Source: Candidatus Peregrinibacteria bacterium CG1_02_54_53 (GTDB lineage: Bacteria; Patescibacteriota; Gracilibacteria; Peribacterales; Peribacteraceae). Taken from it: a stretch of DNA of 49,579 nt. Below, piece by piece: positions 10,247-49,579 of the stretch. The stretch lies in NCBI GenBank assembly GCA_001872575.1, contig MNWP01000033.1, positions 62,249-111,827 on the forward strand. The letters run 5' to 3'. A program made the translations under genes and the position numbers. The notes beneath the pieces are model-generated. The model did not search any database, had not been told where the DNA came from, and saw only the letters and a list, made by a program, of their open reading frames with translations. Position 1 is the stretch's first letter. Each line of letters starts with the position of its first letter.

Positions 10247-12166
10247 ACGTTGTCTGTCTATTTGCCGCAGTGCCGCTCTTGCCTGCGCGTTTGTCGGATC
10301 GAGCTGCAGAATTTGTTCGAACTGTTCCGTTGCCGCTTTGGCATCGTGTGCGTGGTTGAACAGCAGGATCCCAAGGTTTAAGCGTGCCGCGGTAAATTTT
10401 GGCTGCAGGCGTACGGCCTCGCGGTAGGTGCCAATGGCTTCGTCATTGCGGCCCAGTTTTGCCAGCGCAACGCCCAGGTTGTAGTGCGACTGGGGAAAGA
10501 ACGGATTGAGTGTCAGTGCCGTGCGATACTCGGTGATGCCCTCTTCCAGTTGCCCCGTATTGACGAGCAGGGCACCCAAATTCAGATGTGCGGGAGCGAA
10601 TGCCGTATCGACTTCGATGGCTTCGCGGTACCAACGCTCGGCTTCACTTGCAGATCCCTGCTGGCCGGCAACGGTGCCGAGCCCCAACAGGGCGTATACG
10701 TTTTTCGAATTCAAGCGCAGTGCTTCTTCGTACGAGGAACGAGCAGTGATCAGATCGCCCTGTTCCCGCTGGGCCGATGCAAGGTTGCTCCATATCTTCG
10801 ATTGAGAACGTATGAGGCCCGGTCCTGCGCGTCCGTGCTCGCGCAGGAGAGTGAGGGCTGTACGGTACGAGGCAATCGCCTGATCCTCCTCGCCGCGGTA
10901 GCGCTCCACGTTGCCCAGATTCACGTGTGCGACGTAAGCATCGGGAGAGATCCTGAGAGATTGCGAAAAGAGCGCCTCACTATTTTTCCACGTCCGGGCT
11001 TGAATTGCTGCAAGGATACCTAAAACAACAAGTATCACTGTTGCACCTATCACGCATATGGATTTCCGCCGTTCACCGCAGAGCTTCGTAAGTGCGAGTG
11101 TGACGAGAAAGAAGATGCCGATACTCGGAACGTAGGCGTAACGATCGGAGGCGAAGTAGAAGAAATCCCCCTTGGCAAAATTAAAGAGAGTGGGCGAGAC
11201 CGTGATGAGGAAAAAAGCGATGCCGAAAAAAACATTCCTGCTCCACTTCAGTGAAACCAGAGCGGTTACGAGCAGTGCAAAAAACAGCAAGAGGGGAATG
11301 AGAATATCTGCGCGCCTGAGTGTGACATCGCCGACGAATGGATACAGCACCGAGAGGCCGACGGGTGCGAAGATTTTTTCGAGGTAGAAGACTGCGCTCT
11401 TTGGGGCCATGAATAATTTTTCATTCAGACCGGATGAGCCGAGAACATCGGTTTTTCCGATCCAGGCAATGATGCCAAAGATCAGCGAGAGCGCGAAGAA
11501 GGGGATTTTTTCGATGAATATGCTCCGGTTCCACGTGCGTTTCTCTCGCCAGTCGAGCAGGAGCAGGATGACAGGAAGGGTCACTACGGTAACCTTGGCC
11601 AATAGTCCAAGTGTGTAAGCTCCAAGACTGAGAATGAAAGTTCGTCGTTGATGATCAGATCGGTACGCAAGATAGGCGATGAGACTTGCAAGAAAAAAGA
11701 ACGTCGAGAGCACATCTTTACGCGCACTCGCCCATGCAACAGCTTCGGTGTGCAGCGGATGAAGTGCAAAAAGCAGCCCTACGAAGAGTGCGGCCCATCG
11801 TCGTCGTGTAAGAAGGAGCATGAGCCAGGCAACGAGCAGGGCATTGAATGTGTGCCAGAGTAAATTCTGCACATGGTAAATCGTGGCGTTCGTTCCTGCC
11901 AGCAGGTAATCGATTTGGTAGCTGAAGAATGTGAGCGGAATGTAAAGCTCGGGATCATATGTTGTGAAAATCGTTTTGAGTGTCGTTGGGGTGATGGCGC
12001 GGATAGCGGGATTTTCGTAGATGAGTAGCCCGTCATCCCATCGTACGAAGCCGTTGGTGAGTGAGCTGCCGTAGACGAGAATGCTCACGAAGAAGAACAC
12101 ACCCACAATCCACCAACGCAGTGTTGGCGGGGGCAGGGCGGAAGGGGATTCATCGATAGTTCGCAC
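10244..12166 (-). CDS. TPR-containing multispanning membrane protein, TMTC/PMT-like
   Basis: Its architecture resembles TMTC-type GT-C proteins, which transfer mannose or other sugars onto proteins. The N-terminal two thirds have about ten membrane helices with a loop motif FVRWDDGLLIYENPAI (acidic DD pair in the first outer loop) and HPLHTEAVAWASARKDVL, both typical of TMTC-like enzymes. The C-terminal third, from about residue 410, holds about six TPR units (for example APAHLNLGALLVNTG). The start is GTG at 12166, six bases after a -10-like TACAGT. It is the last gene of a co-oriented run with the cupredoxin, cohesin and dockerin genes, 65 bases behind the first of these. A role in glycosylating the surface proteins encoded upstream is inference. 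Confidence 0.75.
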   Translation of the reverse strand: MRTIDESPSALPPPTLRWWIVGVFFFVSILVYGSSLTNGFVRWDDGLLIYENPAIRAITPTTLKTIFTTYDPELYIPLTFFSYQIDYLLAGTNATIYHVQNLLWHTFNALLVAWLMLLLTRRRWAALFVGLLFALHPLHTEAVAWASARKDVLSTFFFLASLIAYLAYRSDHQRRTFILSLGAYTLGLLAKVTVVTLPVILLLLDWREKRTWNRSIFIEKIPFFALSLIFGIIAWIGKTDVLGSSGLNEKLFMAPKSAVFYLEKIFAPVGLSVLYPFVGDVTLRRADILIPLLLFFALLVTALVSLKWSRNVFFGIAFFLITVSPTLFNFAKGDFFYFASDRYAYVPSIGIFFLVTLALTKLCGERRKSICVIGATVILVVLGILAAIQARTWKNSEALFSQSLRISPDAYVAHVNLGNVERYRGEEDQAIASYRTALTLLREHGRAGPGLIRSQSKIWSNLASAQREQGDLITARSSYEEALRLNSKNVYALLGLGTVAGQQGSASEAERWYREAIEVDTAFAPAHLNLGALLVNTGQLEEGITEYRTALTLNPFFPQSHYNLGVALAKLGRNDEAIGTYREAVRLQPKFTAARLNLGILLFNHAHDAKAATEQFEQILQLDPTNAQARAALRQIDRQR

Positions 12167-47047: not shown

Positions 47048-48706
47048 TTAGGCTTCAGTAGTTGCTCGTATGCGTTCCAACTGAAGCCTGTATTCCATGG
47101 CATCAACGATGCACTGCCAGCCGGCGTCGATAGAGTTTGCGCTGACACCGGTGGTTGTCCATCGCCGCTCGCCGTCCGTCCAATCGACGGTAACCTGCAC
47201 GACCGAGTGCGTTCCCTTATGGGATTTCGGTGATTTATCGAGGTGATAATCGAGGAGCTCAACGCTCTGAGGCAGTAAAGGGAAGCGTTCCTTAAGCGCT
47301 TTTACCAGCGCCTCACAAAGTGCACCGATGGGACCGTCATCTTTTGCAACAGTATCATAATCTTCTTGGTCTCCGTTCACACGAACCGAGACGATGGCAC
47401 GGGTATTCTTATCCTTCCCGTTTTGCATTTCGGATGTAATCGAACCCGGATTATGCACACTCAGCGTACTGTGAACCTCAGATGAGAGGACACAGATTTG
47501 AGGATGGAGCTCATTCAGCGCTCGCAACATCAGAAGTTCCACGGAGGCATCGGCGCGATCCATGCAAAATCCACTGGCCTCCTTGGTTTCGATGGCTCTC
47601 AGAATGCGTTGTTGTAGCTCTTTGCTTTGGAGGACCTGACCTTTTACCATTTCGGACAGAAGAGAGGAATTGCTGACGAGATTCCGCACATTTGAGAGAC
47701 CGGCCTGTTTGGAGCCGACGATGATACGGCTATTCCCCCATGTTTCCGGAGATGATCCTTCGTAGAGTCGTGGATTTTTGGCAACGGCCGATACGTGCAT
47801 TCCTCCTTTGTGGGCAAACGCATTCCTGCCAACAAATGGTTGCGTGGGATGGCGGCTAACGCGCATCTGTCGAGCAGCGTCTTCGGAGGCGATTGTCAGG
47901 AGGTGCAGATTTTCTTCCGGAATGGTGGCATATCCCTCCAAATGCAGGTTCGCGATGATCGATTCGAGTTTTCCATTGCCAGTCCGTTCGCCCGCGCCGT
48001 TCCATGTGCCGTCTACGTGACGGGCGCCGGAATACACGGCTGCCAGTGCATTGGCGACGGCAAGGTCTCGATCGTTATGAGGATGGATGCCGATAATGAG
48101 CTGCGGGAATGTGCGACGGACTTCCTCCGTCATCTGTGCGATATGATGAGGAACGGAGTATCCATTGGTATCACACAGGATCACGCGTATTGCACCTCCT
48201 CGAACGGCGGCTTCTATGGCGGCGAGGGGATACTCGGGATCCTCCTGAAATCCATCGAAGGCGTGCTCCGCATCGAAGTGGAGTCGGTCATGTCCTTGGG
48301 AACGGAGAAACGCAAAGGAATCCGTAATGAGTTCCAGATTCTCCTGAGGAGTAATGCCCAACGCCTCTTTCACTTGAAAACGGGAGGCCTTGCCCACGAG
48401 TGTCAGTACGGGGGCCCTTGAGTTATGCAATGCGTTGAGTATGGAATCCTGTTCTGCAGGGGTGCCTTTGCCGTGTGTCTTGCCGAATGCGGAATACGTG
48501 ATCCCTGCAGGCGGATGTTCACGAAGATGAGAAAAGACGGCGTTATCCACTCGGTTCGATCCTGCGAACCCTGCTTCGACGCCATAGAGACCAAGTGAGC
48601 GGTCTTTCTCTATGAACCAAAGTTTGTCTTCCGTACCCATGCCAACGCCGAAGCTTTGATCTCCATCGCGTGGAGTGACGTCGTTGATTTCTATGAATTT
48701 TTCCAT
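47048..48706 (-). CDS. cimA: (R)-citramalate synthase (CimA), LeuA-like
   Basis: CimA condenses pyruvate and acetyl-CoA to citramalate, the first step of the threonine-independent isoleucine pathway. The TIM-barrel starts MEKFIEINDVTPRDGDQSFG; DVTPRDG matches the DxTxRDG catalytic motif. GIHPHNDRDLAVANALAAV supplies the metal-binding HxH region, followed by DGTWNGAGERTGN and FAHKGGMHVSAV. The C-terminal LeuA-type regulatory domain (about 430-552) is typical of CimA and usually senses Ile. At 552 residues the length is as expected. The start at 48706 precedes the first barrel strand; the frame is open further upstream across the leader but reads unlike the family. An apparent Ile attenuator precedes it. 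A related 2-isopropylmalate or homocitrate synthase is less likely. Confidence 0.88.
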   Translation of the reverse strand: MEKFIEINDVTPRDGDQSFGVGMGTEDKLWFIEKDRSLGLYGVEAGFAGSNRVDNAVFSHLREHPPAGITYSAFGKTHGKGTPAEQDSILNALHNSRAPVLTLVGKASRFQVKEALGITPQENLELITDSFAFLRSQGHDRLHFDAEHAFDGFQEDPEYPLAAIEAAVRGGAIRVILCDTNGYSVPHHIAQMTEEVRRTFPQLIIGIHPHNDRDLAVANALAAVYSGARHVDGTWNGAGERTGNGKLESIIANLHLEGYATIPEENLHLLTIASEDAARQMRVSRHPTQPFVGRNAFAHKGGMHVSAVAKNPRLYEGSSPETWGNSRIIVGSKQAGLSNVRNLVSNSSLLSEMVKGQVLQSKELQQRILRAIETKEASGFCMDRADASVELLMLRALNELHPQICVLSSEVHSTLSVHNPGSITSEMQNGKDKNTRAIVSVRVNGDQEDYDTVAKDDGPIGALCEALVKALKERFPLLPQSVELLDYHLDKSPKSHKGTHSVVQVTVDWTDGERRWTTTGVSANSIDAGWQCIVDAMEYRLQLERIRATTEA

Positions 48707-48725
48707 TGGAAGAAAGAAGGAATAC

Positions 48726-48748
48726 AAAAAATCCCGCCGGGCGCGGGA
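48726..48748 (-). terminator. Attenuator terminator in the cimA leader
   Basis: TCCCGC-loop-GCGGGA (48743-48748 and 48732-48737) is followed by six Ts (48726-48731), 20 bases before the cimA ATG. An intrinsic terminator upstream of the gene in its own leader is the hallmark of transcription attenuation. Confidence 0.8.
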
Positions 48749-48757
48749 GAGTAGGGG

Positions 48758-48812
48758 ATCATCAGCTACTTCCTCACGCCGTTTGGGCGGGGGTGATAAT
48801 CGAGCTGATGAT
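48758..48812 (-). promoter_or_regulatory. Attenuator 1:2 stem overlapping the Ile codons
   Basis: ATCATCAGCT (48803-48812, minus strand), which spans the first two Ile codons of the leader peptide, is perfectly complementary to AGCTGATGAT (48758-48767). Alternatively CCCGCC (48786-48791) can pair with GGCGGG (48733-48738) of the terminator, giving a possible antiterminator. The two pairings look mutually exclusive. Confidence 0.7.
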
Positions 48813-48827
48813 GGCGCGCTGTGCCAT
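48774..48827 (-). CDS. cimA leader peptide, 17 aa, Ile-rich
   Basis: The minus strand encodes MAQRAIISSIITPAQTA followed by TGA. Four of 17 residues are Ile, in two adjacent pairs (ATC ATC and ATT ATC). Its ATG lies nine bases after the -10 box, so its translation would be near-leaderless. Ribosome stalling at the Ile codons when Ile-tRNA is scarce would control the downstream hairpins. It is too short for homology tests; the call rests on position, codon content and structure. Confidence 0.7.
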   Translation of the reverse strand: MAQRAIISSIITPAQTA

Positions 48828-48836
48828 GTTGTGCGC

Positions 48837-48864
48837 ATTGTAATATCGCGTTTCGGTTTGTCAA
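48837..48864 (-). promoter_or_regulatory. Promoter of the cimA transcript
   Basis: TTGACA (48859-48864), a 16-base spacer and TACAAT (48837-48842) give the best sigma70-type promoter in the window. Transcription should start near 48830, just before the leader peptide ATG at 48827. Confidence 0.85.
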
Positions 48865-49300: not shown

Positions 49301-49579
49301 TCAAACGCATAATTGTGTTGAAATGACACTATTCAACACTTCTGCGGGTGTCCGGTAGTTGAGGGATCGGCGAGGACGAGTATTGATGAGCTCAACGGCT
49401 CGATCAAGCTCTTCCTGAGAAATGGCACGAAAATCCGTCCCCTTCGGGAAGAAATCCCGCAACAGTCCGTTCGTATGCTCGTTGAGTCCTCGTTCCCAGG
49501 CGTGGTACGGACGCGCGCAGTATACCGTGATCCCCAATTCCTCGGTGATGTTCTGATGACAGCAGATCTCCCTGCCGTT
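49301..49579 (-). mobile_element. IS30-family transposase, C-terminal 92 residues (continues beyond window)
   Basis: The visible part begins NGREICCHQNITEELGITVY and continues with CARPYHAWERGLNEHTNGLL and RDFFPKGTDF. It closely matches the IS30 DDE-domain end, with catalytic Glu in GLNEHTNG, followed by NTRPRRSLNYRTPAEV. The first visible residues belong to the DNGxE motif around the second catalytic Asp, which lies just outside. The stop is at 49301. The element's terminal inverted repeat should lie just downstream (around 49280-49300), but with only one end in view I cannot define it. Confidence 0.92.

Follow-up and report, generated by a model that had tools for sequence, protein, structure and literature searches.

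A predicted ribosome-mediated isoleucine attenuator ahead of cimA and other genes in one bacterial family of the Candidate Phyla Radiation

The ilvBNC leader of Corynebacterium glutamicum (MTIIRLVVVTARRLP) resembles the element described here in its branched-chain codons and in its terminator, antiterminator and anti-antiterminator hairpins, and the start codon of its leader lies 1 nt from the transcription start site (PMC11857589, PMC10272879). However, C. glutamicum belongs to another phylum, no sequence similarity was seen, and its leader reads Val, Leu and Ile ahead of a complete ilv operon, whereas the element described here reads Ile only and precedes cimA, ilvA or leuA without the pathway. 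Leaders of Streptomyces (LeuL, TrpL and others; PMC8079986) and of other Actinobacteria (PMC1262725) share leaderless ORFs, runs of regulatory codons and biosynthetic targets including leuA, but some have no obvious terminator, and they belong to another lineage and control other targets. The ilvL, leuL and pheL leaders of E. coli follow the classical his/trp/ilv-type logic of a leader peptide and a terminator, but their targets are complete operons. E. coli leader mRNAs carry a 5' UTR with a ribosome binding site. For the present lineage, our non-exhaustive search of the open-access literature found no description of such attenuators, in agreement with an earlier prediction made from the letters of this DNA alone (hereafter the original prediction), and the element appears to be the first amino-acid leader-peptide attenuator described in this part of the Candidate Phyla Radiation.

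The window, which is the whole 49,579-nucleotide stretch of DNA that was analysed, comes from the genome containing the cimA leader under study (G000; its own taxonomic family is called f1). Within 160 bases of its minus strand (48706-48864), a promoter, a 17-codon ORF and a terminator are followed by cimA, and the features are as follows.

48837-48864, minus strand: promoter, sigma-70-type, 11 of 12 consensus bases
48864-48859, minus strand: -35 element TTGACA, with a 16-nt spacer to the -10 element
48842-48837, minus strand: -10 element TACAAT
48774-48827, minus strand: leader ORF MAQRAIISSIITPAQTA, ATG at 48827, stop codon TGA at 48776-48774
48803-48812, minus strand: arm 1, AUCAUCAGCU, the first Ile-Ile pair; its partner is 48767-48758, giving a 10-bp protector (anti-antiterminator) stem
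48766-48780, minus strand: arm 2, GGCGUGAGGAAGUAG, 5' half of the predicted antiterminator; holds the leader stop codon
48740-48754, minus strand: arm 3, CUACUCUCCCGCGCC, 3' half of the predicted antiterminator; overlaps the 5' arm of the terminator
48748-48732, minus strand: intrinsic terminator TCCCGC-GCCCG-GCGGGA, stem 48748-48743 with 48737-48732, followed by the U tract TTTTTT at 48731-48726
47048-48706, minus strand: cimA, the controlled gene, ATG at 48706, citramalate synthase type with HMGL-like, HCS_D2 and LeuA_dimer domains (Pfam)

The original prediction had named a strong promoter, a 17-codon peptide with two Ile-Ile pairs, a 10-bp stem with the first Ile pair as its first arm, and a GC stem with six Ts before the cimA ATG, and all of these are present. 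The leader start codon lies 9 nt past the -10 box, and the Ile codons are codons 6, 7, 10 and 11; two or more Ile-Ile pairs occur in just 3 of 4021 random ATG ORFs of 15-20 codons from G000. The leader RNA folds more stably than its shuffles (z = -2.36), and the pairing of arm 1 with 48767-48758 is clear in its minimum-free-energy fold. CimA scores 411 bits (E 4e-123) against TIGR00977, under the curated cut-off of 450 bits, and retains the RDG..Q and HxHND motifs. Upstream of cimA and of a 130-aa ORF without a family match, at the contig end (window 49301-49579, minus strand), lies the C-terminal part of an IS30-family transposase.

At the level of sequence, the element has the defining features of a classical his/trp/ilv-type attenuator, and it very probably acts as a ribosome-mediated attenuator of cimA transcription, with charged tRNA-Ile as the sensed signal. 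From the parts and from their conservation and covariation in the sequence, we infer a transcription start, ribosome stalling, termination and a response to Ile that would proceed as follows. Transcription would start 0-4 nt 5' of the leader AUG, and loading of a ribosome at the 5' end would need no Shine-Dalgarno sequence. When Ile-tRNA is scarce, the ribosome would stall at Ile codons 6-7 or 10-11, covering arm 1 and leaving arm 2 free to pair with arm 3, so that no terminator forms and cimA is transcribed. When Ile-tRNA is plentiful, the ribosome would reach the stop codon and block arm 2, and the terminator would end transcription; if the leader is not translated, arm 1 would pair with 48767-48758 and the terminator would form too. 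If this holds, translation is coupled to transcription in these bacteria, their ribosomes initiate on leaderless leader mRNAs, and no regulator protein is needed to sense a single amino acid.

To compare the leaders of related cimA genes, we searched 191 relatives and found cimA in 20 genomes, 11 of them in f1; cimA loci from distant phyla were left out of the comparison because their identity was just ~40%. All 11 cimA genes of f1 have an Ile-rich short ORF directly after a promoter and a terminator ahead of cimA, keeping peptide, Ile codons and terminator as the original prediction would have it, and such a leader was not found at the nine same-class cimA genes outside f1 (L012-L020). At E<1e-6, a covariance model (R1) built from the 11 leaders picks up the element in ~30 genomes of f1, among them many with no close cimA relative. 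Over 380 genomes sampled across the phylum, every match at E<=0.001 falls within f1 except four weaker ones in f38 and f133, and matches outside f1 at E above about 0.01 were counted as chance. Each of the 32 f1 leaders inspected has 3-6 Ile codons (88 ATT, 66 ATC and 1 ATA in total), and 31 of the 32 homologous leaders have a promoter of the same type as that of cimA with a 16-nt spacer. The predicted attenuator is a regulon across f1 and more than a single case. Since the ORF starts 4-12 nt past the -10 box in 32/32 leaders (7-12 nt in 31), the leader mRNA is probably leaderless or nearly so, and this distance is compatible with that of Streptomyces start sites, which lie on average 6.3 nt past the -10 box (range 4-9; PMC8079986). 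Genome G058 carries an additional, incomplete copy of the element (L125:2065-2155), where an ilvA leader may be supplied by the C-terminal end (..NGTIIPASSTA) of the small protein that precedes it.

The antiterminator differs from the one in the original prediction, which had paired 48786-48791 with 48733-48738. Given 11 leaders, RNAalifold chose, unprompted, a helix of GGCGUGAGGA with a segment ending CUCCCGCGCC, and on 33 leaders it again took arm 2 with arm 3, so that the conserved pairing is that of 48780-48766 with 48754-48740 and the earlier candidate was rejected. In the 33-sequence alignment A3, which was fitted to the model structure with pair counts biased towards it, 86.6% of the cells of this helix are paired. 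Its covariation score is 0.230 against 0.175 for shuffled alignments, with 0/500 shuffles reaching 0.230, and all slid versions of the helix score below this value. The arm 2/arm 3 duplex has a mean energy of -16.6 kcal/mol compared with -11.4 kcal/mol for shuffled arms. An initial test of the antiterminator across species had given p=0.13, partly from an arm of G040 placed in the wrong hairpin, and is superseded by the larger covariation alignment. By sequence and by folding, antiterminator and terminator are mutually exclusive. The protector pairing of arm 1 across 11 species has p=0.025 and is weak in G047 and G017.

The spacing of the parts fits the proposed switch. Arm 2 follows the end of the last Ile codon by 8-14 nt in the 11 cimA leaders, and it contains the leader stop codon, so that a ribosome that has reached the stop would block arm 2 and one at most of the Ile codons would not. 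We folded the leaders with a ribosome mask that covers 17 nt before and 12 nt after the start of the A-site codon. For the G000 leader, the modelled terminator probability was 0.91 when free, 0.00-0.09 with the ribosome stalled at Ile codons (antitermination probability 0.90-0.99) and 0.98 with the ribosome at the stop codon. The modelled switch was seen in nine of the 11 species, and G056 and G041 showed none. The mean switch was 0.82, compared with 0.41 (sd 0.10, maximum 0.71) in 100 sets in which arm 2 and the linker were shuffled. For the G000 leader by itself, 4% of the shuffles of arm 2 and linker do as well, and 22% when only the linker is shuffled, and the modelled switch is thus suggestive for this single sequence and convincing for the set of 11 species. 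Of the Ile attenuator as first proposed, then, the mechanism is supported by conservation, covariation and mask folding, the antiterminator is another pairing, and the pathway rationale, as described below, does not hold for G000.

IlvA and CimA each open a route to 2-oxobutyrate, and both lie behind the Ile leader. The targets of the 32 f1 leaders are cimA (12), threonine dehydratase ilvA (10), LeuA-like genes (3) and others (7), i.e., first-step enzymes of branched-chain synthesis in 25/32 and unrelated or unknown small proteins in the remaining seven. Six of the ilvA genes follow the leader directly and four follow it past a small ORF, three of these four being assigned from the N-terminus alone. 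Within the genus of G000, the element precedes ilvA in G001, G003 and G004 and a LeuA-like gene in G002. Outside f1, Ile leaders stand ahead of ilv-type operons in G182 and G177. Ile leaders also stand ahead of proteins of ~70-250 aa without a known family, in several f1 genomes (L102-L131, L172, L174) and in f38/f133 (L263, L265-L267). Because none of the six such proteins tested has a Pfam match and only two similar pairs occur among them, no shared function can be claimed for them. The Ile leader flags genes annotated without a function as putatively isoleucine-responsive.

The original prediction had argued that CimA opens an isoleucine route, so that Ile sensing fits. The enzyme type of the controlled gene does fit Ile, and the remaining Ile pathway was not found in G000. 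With curated pathway models (positive controls 14/14), ilvB, ilvC, ilvD and LeuC/aconitase were not found in G000, and among the 44 f1 genomes sampled, of which G003 is a single contig, the models returned no ilvD, no full-length ilvC and no IlvB above cut-off, and LeuC/aconitase in only two. A tblastn search with E. coli proteins over 1.32 of the 1.37 Mb of G000 found LeuA and CimA, and no ilvA, ilvE, leuB or leuD. The pathway argument therefore fails for G000. Complete Peribacteria genomes are likewise reported to have few amino-acid biosynthesis genes, and their amino acids were inferred to be taken from outside (PMC4736985). The organism, which the original prediction placed among the Peregrinibacteria, is a tiny, probably host-dependent bacterium; in-frame TGA occurs in other genomes of its class, which would be compatible with the class Gracilibacteria. 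Tightly controlled, isolated first-step enzymes in bacteria inferred to import amino acids (PMC4736985) make a testable puzzle.

Leaders of other amino acids were found in f1 as well. In G000, leuA is preceded by a Leu-rich, leaderless ORF (MHQRNLLALSVARPDVVRYGRVEGLLGLALLLLTAEGRLRA / LLGLALLLLTAEGRLRA; contig C38, L190, around 11757-11966), and such a leader precedes leuA in 5/5 f1 genomes, the four others being close versions such as MHQRNLLLGLALLLLTAEGRLRA; no Leu-rich leader was found at leuA outside f1. Leaders rich in Phe, Tyr or Trp precede DAHP synthase in 6/6 f1 genomes, and chorismate synthase (aroC) is absent from those six. Contig C37 of G000 carries, on the minus strand, a Phe-rich leader MPVQTFTFGFYAFPFSAGQEPMCLN before prephenate dehydratase (30771), the leader MAHRQSYFYGFFFTPYLAGKEPYDLK before DAHP synthase (29695) and the leader MSLSVTLSGNILTPPKAGEVLPA, with a Pro pair, before glutamate 5-kinase (28106). 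In the mask model, the glutamate 5-kinase leader did not switch and the outcome for the leaders of leuA and DAHP synthase in G000 was not clear, and the case for these three is thus one of peptide conservation. The Leu and aromatic pathways of G000 look likewise incomplete. Across these cases, the amino acid of the leader matches the type of gene, which supports codon-based sensing.

It is possible, though unlikely, that the attenuator works and the enzymes are vestigial leftovers of lost pathways, a reading compatible with the attenuation mechanism. The gene content agrees with it, as LeuA, CimA or IlvA, DAHP synthase, prephenate dehydratase and ProB are kept in genomes that lack ilvB/C/D, LeuC and aroC, but open frames, catalytic motifs and leaders are kept in many genera, and the target gene changes between congeners while the Ile leader stays, suggesting selection. 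Another reading of the same presence and absence of genes and their matching leaders, which we consider rather doubtful, is that the orphan first-step enzymes of these amino-acid-dependent bacteria do not serve to complete a pathway inside the cell but act on a partner's pathway when an amino acid is short, for example by handing over the product of a feedback-controlled step. A leaderless attenuator would then be set over CimA or IlvA for Ile, LeuA for Leu, DAHP synthase and prephenate dehydratase for the aromatics, and perhaps glutamate 5-kinase for Pro.

The likeness of the leader peptides across f1 (..IIS.IIITP..) could also point to a TnaC-like arrest peptide, one whose nascent chain would halt the ribosome on binding free isoleucine, or a different small molecule, inside the exit tunnel. 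However, the peptides vary outside the Ile runs, the leaders of other genes share codon runs and not peptide sequence, and 17 codons are short for an exit-tunnel sensor, making this explanation very improbable. A pair of terminator and antiterminator fits any sensor, including a metabolite-binding riboswitch or T-box with an incidental short ORF, but none of the curated families in Rfam 15, T-box included, matches the cimA leader or comes near threshold, the leader is just ~125 nt long without a conserved aptamer, its conserved part is the Ile coding frame with ATT/ATC exchange, and the leader residue tracks the target (Leu for leuA, aromatic for DAHP synthase), so that such a sensor is scarcely credible. 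A terminator that acts constitutively between cimA and the gene upstream of it, together with a chance ORF, is practically excluded, for although intergenic terminators are common and a consensus scan alone gives no terminator excess at the locus, the promoter lies upstream of the terminator, the arrangement is kept in at least 32 genomes with several target genes, and ORFs with two Ile pairs are as rare as given above.

Scanning G000 for leaders returned 9 candidates compared with 4 and 1 in two Markov controls, and in view of these control counts no claim is made for weak single candidates, for example on C5, C20 and C26. Val/Leu-rich leaderless ORFs with terminators precede a small ORF and a UvrD/PcrA-like helicase in G000 (C37, plus strand, 22462), G015:C8, G017:C2 and G054:C39. 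Outside f1, the leader MKLSWLSSATYYYPPLGGG, with three Tyr codons, precedes a biopterin-dependent aromatic amino acid hydroxylase (G134:C2:96921-97043, L186). We also noticed a Met-rich short ORF in G000 (VIQRKSALGTCGERNRTMMHMMMHSLRGRRLA; contig C17, minus strand, 2414), which has a promoter and a terminator and is followed by another short ORF and by histidyl-tRNA synthetase.
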